A stretch of 43,665 nt of DNA, from assembly GCA_027488435.1 (NCBI GenBank), contig JAIYBR010000221.1:1-43665 (forward strand), given 5' to 3'. Within the stretch, counting starts at the first letter, position 1. Each line of letters opens with the position of its first letter. The stretch comes from Flavobacteriales bacterium (GTDB lineage: Bacteria > Bacteroidota > Bacteroidia > Flavobacteriales_D > Sanyastnellaceae). The position numbers were made by a program, and so were the translations under genes. A model generated the notes under the pieces. The model saw only the letters and a list, made by a program, of their open reading frames with translations, ran no database searches and was not told where the DNA came from. Below, piece after piece: positions 8,825 to 43,665 of this stretch.

Positions 8825-9325
8825 TTACTTCTTTGCAGCAGCTTTCTTAGGAGCGGCAGCCTTCTTAGGAGCAGCTTTCTTAGCAGCGGCCTTCTTAGGA
8901 GCAGCAGCTTTCTTAGCAGCAGCCTTCTTAGGAGCAGCAGCTTTCTTAGGAGCAGCCTTCTTAGCAGCAGCCTTCTTAGGAGCAGCAGCCTTCTTCTTAG
9001 GAGCAGCTTTCTTAGCAGCAGCTTTCTTCTTAGGAGCAGCCTTCTTGGCAGCAGCCTTCTTCACGGCCTTTGGGGCAGCGTGTGATTTTGACTTTGTTTT
9101 CATATTTGTAACAGTTGATTTGTGATTTACAATTTCATAAGTGACCTTGGCCGTAACGCAAAACTCATTCACCTTTCCATTTAACACTTTTGCGGTTTGG
9201 TCTTGAACATACACCGAACTAACACTATTGAAACGAGCCATTGCCTCCTCTACAACTTTTTCCGTAGCATCTTCCCAGCTTTTGGGTGAGGCATGTGTTA
9301 TCTCTGTCACTCGATAAACTCCCAT
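8825..9325 (-). CDS. Dodecin-like domain fused to a histone H1-like Lys/Ala/Pro tail
   Basis: The 166 residues form one uninterrupted reading frame. Residues 1-68 match the dodecin family (MGVYRVTEIT, SPKSWEDA at 13-20, NGKVNEF and VTAKVTYEI). Dodecins are small proteins that assemble as hollow 12-mers and usually store flavin. Aligned by eye to flavin dodecins, the stacking Trp corresponds to Ser37 and the flavin-contacting Gln to Cys56, so flavin binding is doubtful. The SPxSWExA pattern recalls the non-flavin 'calcium dodecin' group. Residues 76-166 are almost only Lys, Ala and Pro in repeats such as AAAKKAAPKK, like bacterial H1-like DNA-binding proteins. An in-frame Met75 could start a free tail protein. 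The gene lies 32 bases downstream of the DUF2279 gene. A role in DNA compaction is inference. Confidence 0.9.
   Translation of the reverse strand: MGVYRVTEITHASPKSWEDATEKVVEEAMARFNSVSSVYVQDQTAKVLNGKVNEFCVTAKVTYEIVNHKSTVTNMKTKSKSHAAPKAVKKAAAKKAAPKKKAAAKKAAPKKKAAAPKKAAAKKAAPKKAAAPKKAAAKKAAAPKKAAAKKAAPKKAAAPKKAAAKK
8828..9076 (-). repeat. In-frame tandem Lys/Ala/Pro-coding repeats
   Basis: The segment encoding residues 84-166 of the fusion is built from near-identical units of GCT/GCA (Ala), AAG/AAA (Lys) and CCT (Pro) codons, coding for PKKAAAKKAA-type units. Unit order varies (AAAPKK versus AAPKKK). Repeats this similar can expand or contract in frame, so tail length may differ between strains. 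Confidence 0.9.
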
Positions 9326-36266: not shown

Positions 36267-38633
36267 ATGTCTAAAACGTTTGAAACGCCCGACTATATTC
36301 TCACCGAAGAGAAGATCCGTCAACGTATGCTCGATGACTATCGCTTAGCGTGTATTTCGCGCGAGGCTTCTCTGTTAGGAAGAAAGGAAGTCCTGACCGG
36401 AAAAGCCAAGTTCGGAATCTTTGGTGATGGAAAGGAGTTGGCGCAAATTGCGCTTGCTAAGCAGTTCAAACCGGGCGATTGGCGTAGCGGTTACTACCGC
36501 GACCAGACGCTTATGATGGCCATTGAGCAGTTGACAGTGCAGCAGTATTTCGCAGCACTATACGCGCATACCGATATTGAGCATGAACCTGCAAGTGGCG
36601 GAAGACAAATGGGCGGACACTATGCCACGCGTTTTTTGAACGAGGACGGATCGTGGAAGAATGTCGCCGAACTGAAAAATTCATCAGCCGATATTTCACC
36701 GACAGCAGGACAAATGCCGCGTCTTGTTGGGCTGGCGCAGGCTTCCAAACTTTATCGTAATCTGCCGGAATTGCAAGACCATACCCAGTTCAGCAATAAG
36801 GGTAATGAGGTAGCTTTCGGAACCATCGGTGACGCTTCAACCAGTGAGGGACTTTTTTGGGAAAGTATGAATGCGGCTGCTGTGCTAGGCATACCCATGT
36901 GCATGAGCGTGTGGGACGACGGTTGGGGTATCTCCGTACCAAAGAAATTTCAGACCGTCAAGGAAAGTATTTCTGAAGCATTGAAAGGTTTTGAGAAAAC
37001 AACTACGACCAACGGAATTAAGATATTCAAAGCAAAGGGATGGAATTATCCTGAGCTCCTCATGACGTACGAGAAGGCAGTCAACTATTGCCGTGAAAAT
37101 CATATTCCCGTTTTAGTTCATGTGGAAGAAATTACGCAGCCGCAAGGTCACAGTACGAGCGGTTCACACGAGCGATATAAATCAAAAGAGCTTTTATCTT
37201 GGTATGAACAATACGACTGCATAGAACAGTTCAAGAAGTTCATCATTACCGATGGCTCTGCCAGCGAAAAGGAATTGGATGATATTCGCGAAGCGGCCAG
37301 AAAACAAGTACGTGAAGAACAAAAGAAGGCTTGGAGTGCTTATCGAGCCGATGTAGATTCCGACATTGTGACGTGCGTTGCGACTATCGAGGCGCTAGGT
37401 ACAGAAAGCGCAATGGCAATCGCGTCTGAACTTCGCAAGACTCTAGATCCTATTCGCAAAGATGCTTTTGTAGCCGGTAAGAAAGCCTTGCGTTTGAACG
37501 CCAAGGTTGCAGCGGCTCCGCAGCTTGAGTCGGTTTTGCAAGCCTTGCGCGATAAATGCGAAGACCGTTACTCAGGTCAACTATACAACGAATCAACTTC
37601 ATCGGCTTTGTCAGTAACACCGGTGCCTCCACAGTATGATTCACAACCCGAAATGGTTGATGGTCGCGTCATCATTCGCGATAATTGGGATTATGTGTTG
37701 CGCACCCAACCGGAGACACTCATCTTCGGGGAAGACGTTGGTAAGATAGGCGGTGTTAACCAGACAGCAGAGGGCTTGCAGGAAAAATACGGGGATTTGC
37801 GTGTGAGCGATACCGGGATTCGCGAAGCTACTATTATCGGACAAGGCATTGGAATGGCCATGCGTGGCTTGCGCCCCATTGCCGAAATTCAGTATCTCGA
37901 TTATTTATACTACGCGTTGCAAATAATGCGCGACGATTTAGCAACTGTTCATTGGCGAACGCGCGGAGGCCAGCGCGCTCCGCTCATCATATCGACGCGA
38001 GGTCATCGACTTGAAGGTGTATGGCATGCAGGAAGCCCGATGGCTGCTATCATCAGCAGCGTTCGCGGAATGCATGTGTGCGTGCCACGCAATATGACAC
38101 AAGCTGCCGGCATGTACAACACGTTGCTTGCAGCGCAAGAACCTGCTTTAGTAGTGGAGTGTTTAAATGGATATCGATCGAAAGAGCCCATGCCAACGAA
38201 TATTGGGGAATTCAGAATACCATTAGGCGTTCCTGAAATAGTTCGCGAGGGCAGTGATGTGACGATTGTTTCGTATGGTTCAACCATCCATATATGTTTG
38301 CAAGCGGCCCAAATGCTCGAGGAGAGCGGATTACAGGCAGAAGTAATCGATGTGAGAACCCTGCTGCCTTTCGATCGTAATCACAGTATTGTCGAATCGC
38401 TGAAGAAAACGAATCGCATTCTTTTCGTTGATGAAGACGTACCAGGAGGCGCAACTGCCTTTATGCTCAACGAGGTTATCAATATGCAGGGTGGTTACCG
38501 TTATTTGGATGCTCAACCGCAAACACTTTCAGCTCAGCCGCATTTACCTGCCTATGGAAGTGATGGTGATTACTTCAGCAAGCCGTCGGCAGAGGATGTA
38601 TATGATAAAGTCAGAGAACTTTGTGCTTCCTGA
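36267..38633 (+). CDS. 2-oxoacid dehydrogenase E1, alpha and beta subunits fused (branched-chain type)
   Basis: The 788-residue thiamine-diphosphate enzyme carries both halves of the E1 heterodimer in one chain. The alpha half (about residues 15-430) has YYRDQTLMM, ADISPTAGQMPRLVGLAQAS, and the ThDP/Mg motif GDASTSEGLFWESMNAA (188-204). The beta half (about 463-788) has LIFGEDVG, DTGIREATIIGQGIGMAMRGL, HSIVESLKKTNR and VDEDVPGGATAF. It oxidatively decarboxylates a branched-chain or related 2-oxoacid with separate E2 and E3 subunits, which are not in the window. Such fused E1 proteins are well known in Bacteroidota. It has its own near-leaderless promoter. Confidence 0.93.
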   Translation: MSKTFETPDYILTEEKIRQRMLDDYRLACISREASLLGRKEVLTGKAKFGIFGDGKELAQIALAKQFKPGDWRSGYYRDQTLMMAIEQLTVQQYFAALYAHTDIEHEPASGGRQMGGHYATRFLNEDGSWKNVAELKNSSADISPTAGQMPRLVGLAQASKLYRNLPELQDHTQFSNKGNEVAFGTIGDASTSEGLFWESMNAAAVLGIPMCMSVWDDGWGISVPKKFQTVKESISEALKGFEKTTTTNGIKIFKAKGWNYPELLMTYEKAVNYCRENHIPVLVHVEEITQPQGHSTSGSHERYKSKELLSWYEQYDCIEQFKKFIITDGSASEKELDDIREAARKQVREEQKKAWSAYRADVDSDIVTCVATIEALGTESAMAIASELRKTLDPIRKDAFVAGKKALRLNAKVAAAPQLESVLQALRDKCEDRYSGQLYNESTSSALSVTPVPPQYDSQPEMVDGRVIIRDNWDYVLRTQPETLIFGEDVGKIGGVNQTAEGLQEKYGDLRVSDTGIREATIIGQGIGMAMRGLRPIAEIQYLDYLYYALQIMRDDLATVHWRTRGGQRAPLIISTRGHRLEGVWHAGSPMAAIISSVRGMHVCVPRNMTQAAGMYNTLLAAQEPALVVECLNGYRSKEPMPTNIGEFRIPLGVPEIVREGSDVTIVSYGSTIHICLQAAQMLEESGLQAEVIDVRTLLPFDRNHSIVESLKKTNRILFVDEDVPGGATAFMLNEVINMQGGYRYLDAQPQTLSAQPHLPAYGSDGDYFSKPSAEDVYDKVRELCAS

Positions 38634-38761: not shown

Positions 38762-41700
38762 ATGGCGCGTTCACGAATAATCTTTTGCCTTATAGGTCTT
38801 GTTCTTTTCTTGAAAGGCAACCTTGTTGGTCAAACCGAGAGTCAACCTTATTCGCGCACGCTGACCAAAATCGATGAGTCTAGCTTCTTGGTCACCATAA
38901 AAATCAATATGCCCAATGCAAGTGATGTAATTCGCGTGTTGGAAGCATTACCTGAAAGTGCCGAATTGCTGGTTCAAGAGTCCGGTGGATCCATCACAGA
39001 GGTAACTGATCAAACTGTCAAGTTCATTTGGTTTAGGAGTTCAACTACCATGCTCACATCGCAGTATGTGGTTCGCTATTCGAATCAGGCCATGTTGAAT
39101 GGTGCCATCAGCGGTGAATTCATGCAGCTCGACTCCGATAGGGAGCTTTTGCAAATTGTAAAGTCTCCCGTCATTTCTTCCATGCTGAATACACAGCCAA
39201 GTTCATCTGAAAACCAACCGACAGAAGACAAGGAAACTACATCCGGTGAGTTCGAAGTAAGCGGACGTGTTTATGACGAAGTAACGGGAGAACCTCTCAT
39301 TGGTGCTGTGATTGGCGACGCAGCGAGCGGCAATGGAACGACGACCGATCTAGACGGAAACTTCAGTTTCAAGATTTCACAGTTGCCAACAACGCTTCAA
39401 ATTTCTCTGGTTGGTTATACTTCTCAGGAGTTAGTCATAGCCTCAGCGGAAAAGCCTTTGGATATAAGGCTTTCATCGAATGAAAGTCTGTTGAAGGATG
39501 TGAATATCGTTTCAGACCGCATCCTGGAAAGGCAGAAAATGAATCCACTTACGGTAGAAAGTATGGATGCGATTGCCATCAAGGAAGTTCCCACGGGTAA
39601 TTTCTACGAGGGATTAGCTGCACTCAAAGGTGTCGATATTGCTTCGGCTAGTTTGGGATTCCGAATCATTAATACGCGCGGTTTCAATAGCACGTCTCCG
39701 GTGCGCGTGCTGCAACTGATTGATGGAGTAGACAATCAGTCACCCGGATTGAATTTCTCACTTGGAAATTTCTTGGGAGCACCTGATCTGGACGTGAAGT
39801 CGGTGGAGGTTGTTCAAGGAGCGAGTAGTGCTTATTATGGCCCTGGTGCATTCAATGGCGTAATCAGCATGGAAACAAAGAATCCATTTCTGACGCCCGG
39901 ACTAACCGCCAATCTGAAAGTCGGGGAGAGGAGCATGGTACAACCCAGTGTGCGATGGGCTGATTTTTTCCGAAACAAGAATGGCCATCCCTGGTTTGCC
40001 TATAAGTTGAATGTTCTCTACCTCGCAGCTGAGGATTGGCAAGCGACAAATTATACTCCCATTTATGGTTCGTCAGACGGAAGCAATAATCCCGGTCGAT
40101 TTGATGCGGTCAATATTTATGGCGACGAGTATTTCCCGGCTAACGACTATTCAACTGCATCTCCTTCATCGCAACAGTATAGAGGAGTTGGTGCTTTCTA
40201 CCGAACAGGGTATAGGGAGGAGGATTTGGTTGATTATGACACTGAAAATTTGAAGGTGAGTGCAGCGGCCCACTTTCGTTTGAAGCCCGAACTTGAATAC
40301 GATTCACCTGAACTCATACTTCAGTCGAATTTTGGTCAGGGCACTACTGTATATCAGGGCGACAACCGATTTAGTTTGCGTAATATTCTCTTCTACCAGA
40401 ACCGAATAGAGCTGCGAAAAAATAAGAAGTACTTTCTGCGTGCTTATGCTACTCATGAAAATGCGGGCGACAGTTACGACCCGTACTTCACAGCTAAGCG
40501 ATTGCAAGAGGATGCTCGATCGAATGAAGACTGGGCTTCGGTGTACCTCAAGTATTGGCAACAGAAGGTTATTCCGCGAATGAATGCGCTGGGTTACCCG
40601 AATTTACAGTTAAACCCAGCCTGGCCGGGCCCGGTGCTCGACCCATATTACGAACAGTTTTTCTTGCCTTACAGTAATACAGTCTGGATGAATACGTACA
40701 GTGATTCTCTTGCGCAATGGCATCATTGGGTTGAGAATCTCACCAATAACGGGAACGCCGGGATACCCATGGATAGCCTTGGCTACTATTCCCCAGGAAC
40801 AGATCAATTCAATACTGCCTTCAATAGAATTACTTCAGGTAAAAACAACGAAAAGGAACAAGGCACGAAATTCTATGATAGGTCAGCGTTGTACCAATTG
40901 CAAGGTGAATATCAATGGTCTTTTTCTCGACTGGATGAATTGAGAGTAGGGTTTAGTGGCCGTTTGTACACTCCAGATTCGGATGGTACTATTTTCATTG
41001 ATACGCTCACAGAAACAATAACCGGCGATGCCGCGTCGGGTTTCGATACTACGTACAGCAAAAACAGATTTACAAATTATCAATATGGATTTTACGTAGG
41101 GATGGAAAAGAAGGTGGCCGACAAATGGGTATTCAGCGCTACCATGAGAGCCGATAAAAATCAAAATTTTGACGCTGTTTTTTCGCCGGCAGCATCTGTG
41201 GTTTTTTCACCAAGGTCCAATCATTTCTTGCGTTTATCTTTTACCAGCGCAGTTCGCAATCCAACTTTGACCGACCAGTACCTCAACCTGAACGTGGGGC
41301 CGGCAATTCTGAGGGGGAATTTGGAGGGGGCCGACAGCCTTATCACAGTCGATTCATTCATCAAATGGCGTGATACGCAAAAAGCCTCATCGTTGGAATA
41401 TTTCAATGTAGATCCAATACGTCCGGAACAAGCTCAGTCAATAGAAGTGGGGTATAGGGCAACATTGAACAATCGCCTTTTCCTGGATGTTTCGGCATTT
41501 AGCACATTCTATAAAAACTTCATAGGTTATCGCATTGGAATTGACGCTCCTTTCACTGAGTCAGGTCAAATCGAGAATTTGTCTCAGATTCGTGTTTATC
41601 GATATGCTGCCAACAGTTCAAATGAGGTCGTTTCGCAAGGCGCCAATCTTGGTGTCAATTATTACTACTGGAAGCAACATGCCTTTTCATTCAACTATTC

Positions 41701-42073: not shown

Positions 42074-42136
42074 TTTTCCAATCTTCCTGTTTATAAGTAA
42101 GCGTTGCTCAGGTGCAGCACTATCAGATTTTTGTAG

Positions 42137-42149
42137 ATTGCACTGCAAT
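42137..42149. promoter_or_regulatory. Palindrome ATTGCA-C-TGCAAT upstream of the T9SS esterase-like gene
   Basis: A perfect inverted repeat with 6-base arms and a 1-base centre lies 26 bases before the ATG at 42176. It overlaps TAGATTGC (42135-42142), a degenerate -7-like sequence. It may be an operator. Confidence 0.35.
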
Positions 42150-42175
42150 TTCATAAACCATTTAATCTTTTAACC

Positions 42176-43665
42176 ATGAACAAAATTTCTACTCTATTTC
42201 TGGCTTTGGCCATGTTAGTGTATTCGGGTTCATCTGCTCAACGCTACCTCACCGAGGTTTTCGAGTCAGTTGATGTACAGTCGAATGTAACCTATGGCGT
42301 AAACGCTACTGTTATTGCTTATGCGCAGTTGGGGCAGGCAATTCCACAACCTTTGTTAATGGACGTGTACACTCCTAGCGGTGATACCGTTTCTAATCGT
42401 CCTGTTATTTTGTATTTCCACACGGGAAACTTCCTGCCAACTCCGCAAAATGGCAGCACTAGCGGAACAAAGACCGACCTGAATGTGGTTGAAATGTGTT
42501 CACGTTTGGCTCGTATGGGTTACGTTGTTGCTTCTTGCGATTATCGCCTAGGTTGGAATCCGGTTGCAACCACTCAGGAAGAACGCGTTAACACGCTCAT
42601 CAATGCTGCATACCGTGGTGTTCAAGATTGCAGAACGGCCATTCGTTATTTCCGTAAAACTGAGGCGGAGAATGCTAACCCATTCGGCATTGATCCTTCC
42701 CGTATCTGCGTATGGGGACAAGGCACAGGTGGATACATTTCCTTCGCCGCTGCGACCATCAATGAATATGCTGACATAGCTATTCCAAAATTCACTCGTC
42801 AAATTGAAGTGCCACCAGGTTCTGGTAATTTCATCACGGTGCCTATGGTTATCGAGGCGATCAACGGGGATATTTTCGGAACTTCTCTAGGAATTAATCC
42901 GGCGGATAATGATACACTTTGCTATCCTAACCACGTGGGTTACTCTTCTGACTTTAATGTTATGGTCAACATGGGTGGTGCTTGTGGTGACAGCTCATGG
43001 GTAACTGAAGAAGATGTTCCCATGATATCATTCCATGCTCCATTGGATCTATTCGCTCCTTATGGAATCGGAACTGTTATCGTTCCCGGATTCAATCTTC
43101 CTGTAGTGGAAGTAAGCGGTAGTTATCATGTTCAGCAAATGGCTAATGCTTTCGGTTTGAATGCTTCATTTGCTGCAGCAGATGTTCAAGGTGACATCTT
43201 TACTGCGCAGGCAAACATTTACAACGACGGTTATTTTGGATTGTACCCTTTAAATCGTCCTGTATCTGCAGCCGCTGACAGCGCTCCTTGGGAATGGTGG
43301 AATGCGGACAATCCCAATAATGCGAATGGTTTGTTAACGAACCCTGATATGTCTATGGAAAAGGGTATGACCTACTTAGACACGATTCAGGGTTATGCAG
43401 CTACTAGAATCATGTGCGCCATGCAATTGCCTGGCAATCCATGTGAAGCTTCTGTAGATATAAATGAGGTAGAGTCTGAGTTTAAACTTTATCCAAATCC
43501 AACAACCGGTATTTTCACTGTAAGCGCTGCGAATGGCTCAGCGATTCAAATGCTTGATGTATACGACGTGGCAGGCCGACGCGTAATGAGCATGAATCCA
43601 TTACGTTCGAATGTTACGATGGATATCACCGATTTGCCTCGCGGTATGTATACTATTCAACTGCG
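42176..43665 (+). CDS. Carboxylesterase-like alpha/beta-hydrolase protein with T9SS type A signal, truncated by the window edge
   Basis: About 496 codons are visible from the ATG at 42176; no stop is reached. A signal peptide (1-22, ending SSAQ) is followed by an alpha/beta-hydrolase core: PVILYFHTGNFLP (oxyanion region), GYVVASCDYRLGWNP, CRTAIRYFRKTEAENANPFGIDPSRI and VWGQGTGGYISFAA (about residues 179-192). The nucleophile elbow, normally GxSxG, reads G-Q-G-T-G with Gly183 where Ser is expected, so it may lack esterase activity. The C-terminal T9SS type A sorting domain (FKLYPNPTTGIF from residue 436, DVYDVAGRRVMS, LPRGMYTIQ) shows export by type IX secretion and surface attachment or release. 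Only the last few residues appear to be missing. Confidence 0.88.
   Translation, partial: MNKISTLFLALAMLVYSGSSAQRYLTEVFESVDVQSNVTYGVNATVIAYAQLGQAIPQPLLMDVYTPSGDTVSNRPVILYFHTGNFLPTPQNGSTSGTKTDLNVVEMCSRLARMGYVVASCDYRLGWNPVATTQEERVNTLINAAYRGVQDCRTAIRYFRKTEAENANPFGIDPSRICVWGQGTGGYISFAAATINEYADIAIPKFTRQIEVPPGSGNFITVPMVIEAINGDIFGTSLGINPADNDTLCYPNHVGYSSDFNVMVNMGGACGDSSWVTEEDVPMISFHAPLDLFAPYGIGTVIVPGFNLPVVEVSGSYHVQQMANAFGLNASFAAADVQGDIFTAQANIYNDGYFGLYPLNRPVSAAADSAPWEWWNADNPNNANGLLTNPDMSMEKGMTYLDTIQGYAATRIMCAMQLPGNPCEASVDINEVESEFKLYPNPTTGIFTVSAANGSAIQMLDVYDVAGRRVMSMNPLRSNVTMDITDLPRGMYTIQL

Follow-up and report, generated by a model that had tools for sequence, protein, structure and literature searches.

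A T9SS-tailed pseudo-esterase paired with a TonB-dependent receptor in the Bacteroidia, and its possible role as an extracellular capture protein

TonB-dependent channels import nutrients in the Bacteroidota and often have an extracellular partner, which captures the ligand and delivers it to them. To our knowledge, the extracellular partners known for these channels in the Bacteroidota are lipoproteins. In the SusC/SusD and RagA/RagB systems, the gene of an extracellular binding protein lies beside that of a TonB-dependent channel which carries a carboxypeptidase-regulatory-like domain at its N-terminus, an arrangement shared by the locus described here. However, SusD and RagB are surface lipoproteins built on a TPR fold, whereas the protein of the present locus, hereafter the pseudo-esterase, has an α/β-hydrolase fold, no lipobox and a T9SS sorting tail; it found no match to the SusD family in the Pfam and NCBIfam scans, and the test for a SusD-like fold was not met. 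In the BtuB-BtuG system of vitamin B12 uptake (PMC10404256), a TonB-dependent transporter has its own dedicated surface lid, to which the ligand binds before being transferred, and a lid-like extracellular partner also accompanies the TonB-dependent transporter of the XusA-XusB xenosiderophore uptake system (PMC13142918), the description of which mentions neither the T9SS nor hydrolases. BtuG differs from the pseudo-esterase in being a surface lipoprotein with a known ligand and no relation to esterases, and XusB in being a surface lipoprotein devoted to siderophores.

Two other groups of proteins are relevant from the side of the fold. Neuroligins are animal membrane proteins which have neurexins as binding partners. 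Like the pseudo-esterase, they combine a carboxylesterase fold deprived of the catalytic Ser with an extracellular binding function but, unlike it, they lost this Ser separately and have no transporter partner. The nearest canonical relatives are the T9SS-exported BD-FAE/type A carboxylesterases of the Ser type, e.g., a paralogue encoded in the same genome as the window protein (L002, with a GASAGG elbow), which possess the same fold and export tail but differ from the pseudo-esterase by an intact Ser-Asp-His triad, an intact HGG motif and the absence of an adjoining receptor.

The window, i.e., the whole stretch of 43,665 nucleotides that was analysed, ends inside the gene of the pseudo-esterase. 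The open reading frame 42176-43663 (+) encodes 496 residues without a stop before the contig end, and some 13 residues are missing by comparison with orthologues of about 509 residues, the single-domain orthologues ranging from 499 to 516 residues. The region of the elbow translates as ...SRICVWGQGTGGYISF... (Table 1). Membership of the α/β-hydrolase domain is met by profile, with both BD-FAE (48.5 bits for a cut-off of 26.8, residues 62-199) and COesterase (32.9 bits for a cut-off of 27) above their Pfam cut-offs. The T9SS type A sorting domain announced by the original prediction is borne out by Pfam Por_Secre_tail (39.1 bits, residues 438-495) and by NCBIfam TIGR04183. Elsewhere in the window (8825-9325, minus strand), an unusual fusion was noticed, in which residues 3-65 match dodecin (Pfam 58.6 bits), a flavin-binding shell protein, and are followed by a long lysine/alanine/proline-rich, DNA-binding-like tail resembling histone H1.

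Table 1. Features of the receptor/pseudo-esterase locus, numbered from the first nucleotide of the window.
Feature	Position	Strand	Remarks
Partner TonB-dependent receptor, 1103 aa	38762..42073	+	CarbopepD_reg_2, Plug and β-barrel
Short intergenic gap between receptor and pseudo-esterase	42074..42175	+	Both genes on the same strand; compatible with a single transcript
Pseudo-esterase gene	42176..43665	+	496 aa within the window; truncated at its 3' end, where the contig stops
Signal peptide, residues 1-21	42176..42238	+	Probable cleavage A21|Q22, without lipobox; sequence and A21-Q22 in 27/27 orthologues or nearly so
BD-FAE portion of the α/β-hydrolase domain, residues 62-199	42359..42772	+	Pfam; BD-FAE match in 27/27 members
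Altered oxyanion motif H82-T83-G84	42419..42427	+	HGG in canonical relatives; T83 in 95% of Gly-type and 0% of Ser-type sequences
Nucleophile elbow W180-G181-Q182-G183-T184-G185-G186	42713..42733	+	Gly183 (codon 42722-42724) instead of Ser; codon of W180 begins at 42713
Asp291, catalytic acid still in place	43046..43048	+	Asp in 99% of Gly-type and 100% of Ser-type sequences; matches the acid of solved esterases
P371-W-E-W-W375	43286..43300	+	Opposite the H-x-P-[YH] loop, which bears the catalytic His in canonical relatives; devoid of His
T9SS type A sorting domain (Por_Secre_tail)	43487..43663	+	Pfam/NCBIfam; incomplete at the contig end; present in 27/27 relatives

With respect to the catalytic residues, Gly183 aligns to the nucleophilic Ser of heroin esterase (GQSAGG), acetyl xylan esterase (GFSSGG), Lip_vut4 (GDSSGG) and a 7bfn-type esterase (GGSAGG), and Asp291 to the catalytic acid of solved esterases. 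The WGQGTGG elbow with Gly183 in place of Ser, as read in the original prediction, is thus confirmed both by codons 42713-42730 and by the alignment. The accompanying statement that the rest of the fold is intact was only half right, in that the catalytic His has gone as well and the oxyanion HGG of canonical relatives has turned into HTG. No catalytic His was found in any of the Gly-type sequences inspected, whereas it is present in the Ser-type ones inspected. The place of the lost residue depends on the alignment, one of them putting it opposite D-x-[FY]-T and the other opposite SAPWE (..PWEWW), with His in neither. The canonical relatives of the Ser type keep Ser in 31 of 31 sequences; Asp and His are likewise present in the ones that were inspected. 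The serine carboxylesterase test accordingly gives a mixed outcome, the nucleophilic Ser of the GxSxG motif and the catalytic His being not met and the catalytic Asp being met. A Ser located elsewhere at the nucleophile position would have refuted the original prediction and none was found by alignment; no Ser or Cys substitute is conserved at the elbow among the aligned Gly-type members. An alternative nucleophile was also considered and rejected, the well-conserved Ser102 and Ser393 positions lying outside any triad motif. Judged from its residues, the pseudo-esterase is not a serine esterase; its hydrolytic inactivity is inferred from the absence of both Ser and His, in the absence of activity data.

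The conservation of Asp291 could nevertheless suggest that the protein has remained an enzyme relying on another chemistry, be it based on Asp291, assisted by a metal, or served by a nucleophile from another loop. Asp291 is kept in 99% of the sequences, H82 in 88% and H287 in 79%, and both Y187 and K205 are 99% conserved. However, the elbow position offers neither Ser nor Cys, the C-terminal half has no conserved His at the catalytic place, the oxyanion motif is altered, and H82 and H287 are equally frequent in Ser-type relatives and are therefore not new features. Such a residual enzymatic function is regarded as rather improbable.

The replacement of the nucleophile is by no means a peculiarity of the window protein. 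Of 146 distinct clade members from 27 GTDB families of Bacteroidia, down to about 33% identity, 144 have Gly in the nucleophile slot; Gly also stands at the elbow of all 27 diverse orthologues of alignment A2, so that Gly183 results neither from chance nor from a sequencing error. The conservation of the elbow among homologues, which the original prediction had proposed as a check, is thus strongly positive, with a consensus GxG[TSA]G[GA]Y over the 27 GTDB families; the initial 30 orthologues all read G[QE]G[TA]GGY. In the two exceptions, Asn (L221) or Tyr (L179) is found in a second copy, and a copy with Gly exists in the same genome. In the GTDB family of the window, a homologue was found in 110 of the 114 genomes, canonical paralogues being counted in. 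No relative was found in the viral contigs scanned. A degenerating gene or a sequence error, which the loss of catalytic residues might evoke, is practically excluded and already refuted by this conservation: the identical loss recurs in 144 of the 146 sequences from 27 families, the reading frames are intact, conservation is strong, and the loss has essentially a single origin on the tree (SH-aLRT 99).

Relatives that look like intermediates were also encountered. Twelve sequences from three families (f44, f49 and f66) possess FEPFG or a similar stretch in replacement of the His loop and have Ser in ten cases and Asn in two; in examples such as L246-L250, L253-L257, L259 and L260, the elbow reads GSSSGAY or GSNSGGY, with the His already lost. 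Their genomes contain an orthologue of the receptor, which is not adjacent. In a quick tree these sequences are sister to the Gly clade, with SH-aLRT values of 99 for the Gly-type group and 99 for the joint group. Since these His-less relatives keeping Ser or Asn are sister to the Gly clade, the decay was ordered, the His having been lost before or together with the Ser, and the change from Ser to Gly was essentially one event. In addition, about 15 residues (T83, P88, N92, W127, Y187, K205, F206, G267, A294, V303, P304, V310, W372, W375 and R411) are fixed in at least 90% of the Gly-type sequences and rarely seen in Ser-type relatives; they cluster, along the sequence, near the former active-site motifs. 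Because of these residues fixed only in the Gly type, the pseudo-esterase is regarded as being under a new constraint and not as decaying. An AlphaFold prediction from the window protein together with five related loci (six close sequences) reached a mean pLDDT of only 31, leaving the geometry of the pocket unproven.

The gene directly upstream, overlooked by the original prediction, encodes the partner TonB-dependent receptor. This receptor reaches 107.7 bits with TIGR04056 (SusC/RagA), below the cut-off of 368.25, and is therefore not a SusC/RagA protein by the NCBI cut-off. Some 145 additional residues precede its CarbopepD_reg domain (window 38822-39250, plus strand); they are absent from the 920-1000 aa orthologues of sister species and gave no Pfam match above cut-off. 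Neighbourhoods were compared in 20 genomes and then in 20 more families. Among the first 46 loci, 41 have the receptor directly upstream, as do all loci of family f63, and the gap to the pseudo-esterase spans 6 to 153 nt where the receptor is adjacent. Of 15 Ser-type genes, none has the receptor as a neighbour, except for one which is itself preceded by a Gly-type gene. The receptor is the only neighbour conserved between families, the others being variable. A third gene of the module was sought and rejected, the E1 dehydrogenase fusion, the pseudouridine-5'-phosphate glycosidase and the DUF1573-like genes recurring solely in the family of the window. The first of these, a fused E1 alpha-beta 2-oxoacid dehydrogenase of 788 aa (window 36267-38633, plus strand), adjoins the pair and is conserved beside it in that family; beyond, it was encountered only in family f60, in the opposite orientation. 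A defence function was discarded for lack of any PADLOC hit. In family f61 (L076:5032-6315 and L296), the pseudo-esterase is immediately followed by a canonical T9SS esterase of the Ser type, giving a receptor, a dead esterase and a live esterase in series.

The pseudo-esterase and the receptor form a linked, co-occurring gene pair. Of 291 genomes drawn across the class, 122 hold both genes, three the pseudo-esterase only, three the receptor only, and 163 neither, so that 122 of the 128 genomes with either gene hold both (Fisher p ~1e-74, uncorrected for the relatedness of the genomes). Among these six exceptions are several genomes of limited completeness (e.g., 76-80%). The two genes are adjacent in 85 of the 122 genomes; in 82 of these, the receptor precedes the pseudo-esterase in the same orientation, and in three it lies downstream. 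In the remaining 37, the receptor occurs elsewhere in the same genome. A phylum-wide draw of 297 genomes yielded a receptor orthologue (at least 955 bits) in all seven genomes of the Gly type and in no other, the next best receptor scoring 363 bits. The families with the pair number 30, and in 27 of these the esterase partner is of the Gly type. Within families, both genes are jointly present or jointly absent, e.g., in f21 (two genomes with both, seven without either) and f28 (four of each). One genome (G372, family f70) combines a receptor orthologue of 878 bits with only a canonical Ser-type relative, which may reflect a missing gene or a reverted pair. So tight a pairing could also be that of a regulator or plug, the binding of which would gate the channel or trigger signalling without any transported ligand in the pocket. 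The absence of conserved regulatory genes from the neighbourhood, sigma and anti-sigma factors included, speaks against this reading, and we consider it very unlikely.

The pseudo-esterase qualifies by sequence as a T9SS type A cargo, both a signal peptide and a C-terminal Por_Secre_tail being met; the tail is kept in 27 of the 27 members scanned, and the core components SprA and PorV of the T9SS were found in the host genome. Export in fact is inferred. No lipobox occurs at the cleavage site of the window protein and none that is convincing was found among 148 relatives, the three regex hits all falling within the hydrophobic core; the test for a lipoprotein signal peptide, as expected of a SusD/RagB-type lid, was not met. 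A T9SS cargo may be released or held by LPS rather than seated on a channel. Together with the loss of Ser and His, the T9SS tail supports the reading of a T9SS-exported pseudo-enzyme put forward by the original prediction, with export and inactivity both inferred.

Depending on the members, additional domains occur. Several genera of the family of the window possess tandem pseudo-esterases which reach about 1300 aa and comprise two domains, both of the Gly type (L073:6125-10078 and L075:6347-10246 among them), and both tandem proteins scanned carry a C-terminal CBM-like domain (X25/AMPK1_CBM, starch-binding-like). A SusE-like domain (PF14292) is found in four members of family f12, with scores around the Pfam cut-off. 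These carbohydrate-related domains are restricted to a minority of members. Other orthologues of 660-680 aa, such as L024, L034 and L036, have an extra domain of about 160 aa between the esterase and sorting domains, for which no Pfam match was obtained.

A binding or adhesin role was also suggested by the original prediction, and a surface adhesin or structural partner which binds proteins, cells or matrix, the receptor serving as a dock or having a separate, related task, has to be weighed. Many adhesins are exported by the T9SS, and the two-domain tandem forms exist. Neuroligins, which appear among the sequence hits, illustrate an esterase fold without catalytic Ser acting in cell adhesion (PMC12931606). 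On the other hand, the near-perfect co-occurrence with one subfamily of TonB-dependent receptors fits transport better, and the conserved residues gather round the former active-site motifs. The adhesin reading is thus unlikely, although it keeps some credit. The TonB-dependent receptor adjoining upstream alters the functional reading: rather than a free adhesin or binder, the pseudo-esterase is taken to be one half, the extracellular one, of a transporter pair.

The role we favour, with moderate confidence, is that of an extracellular capture or lid protein for the TonB-dependent transporter, derived from a dead esterase, exported by the T9SS and acting in the manner of SusD, BtuG or XusB. 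In this two-gene outer-membrane module, the receptor would be the uptake channel and the pseudo-esterase would travel via the T9SS to the cell surface, to be positioned over or near the channel. The old esterase pocket, with Ser and His removed, Asp kept and newly conserved Trp, Tyr, Lys and Asn residues, would bind a ligand without hydrolysing it, and the bound ligand would then be passed to the channel. The physical complex, the binding of a ligand, its hand-over and its transport are all inferred, as is the identity of the ligand. A glycan or a glycan-ester is only a weak guess in this respect, based on the SusE-like and starch-binding-like extra domains of some members.

Our search of open-licence papers found nothing that joins the T9SS to an inactive esterase, or a TonB-dependent receptor to a carboxylesterase and the T9SS. 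It is tentatively proposed, with a confidence that stays somewhat short of even, that TonB-dependent uptake systems of this kind form a new class with a wide distribution in the Bacteroidota. Its extracellular capture or lid protein would be a T9SS-exported, catalytically dead esterase rather than a surface lipoprotein, and the living His-less relatives that keep the Ser would document how an enzyme turned into a binding protein. The annotation as "carboxylesterase" is wrong for the whole Gly-type clade. If the proposal is true, the T9SS would be tied directly to the uptake machinery of the Bacteroidota, a transporter family of unknown substrate would be present in about 40% of the sampled Bacteroidia genomes, and the clade would offer a traceable case of the passage from an enzyme to a binding protein, with living intermediates.
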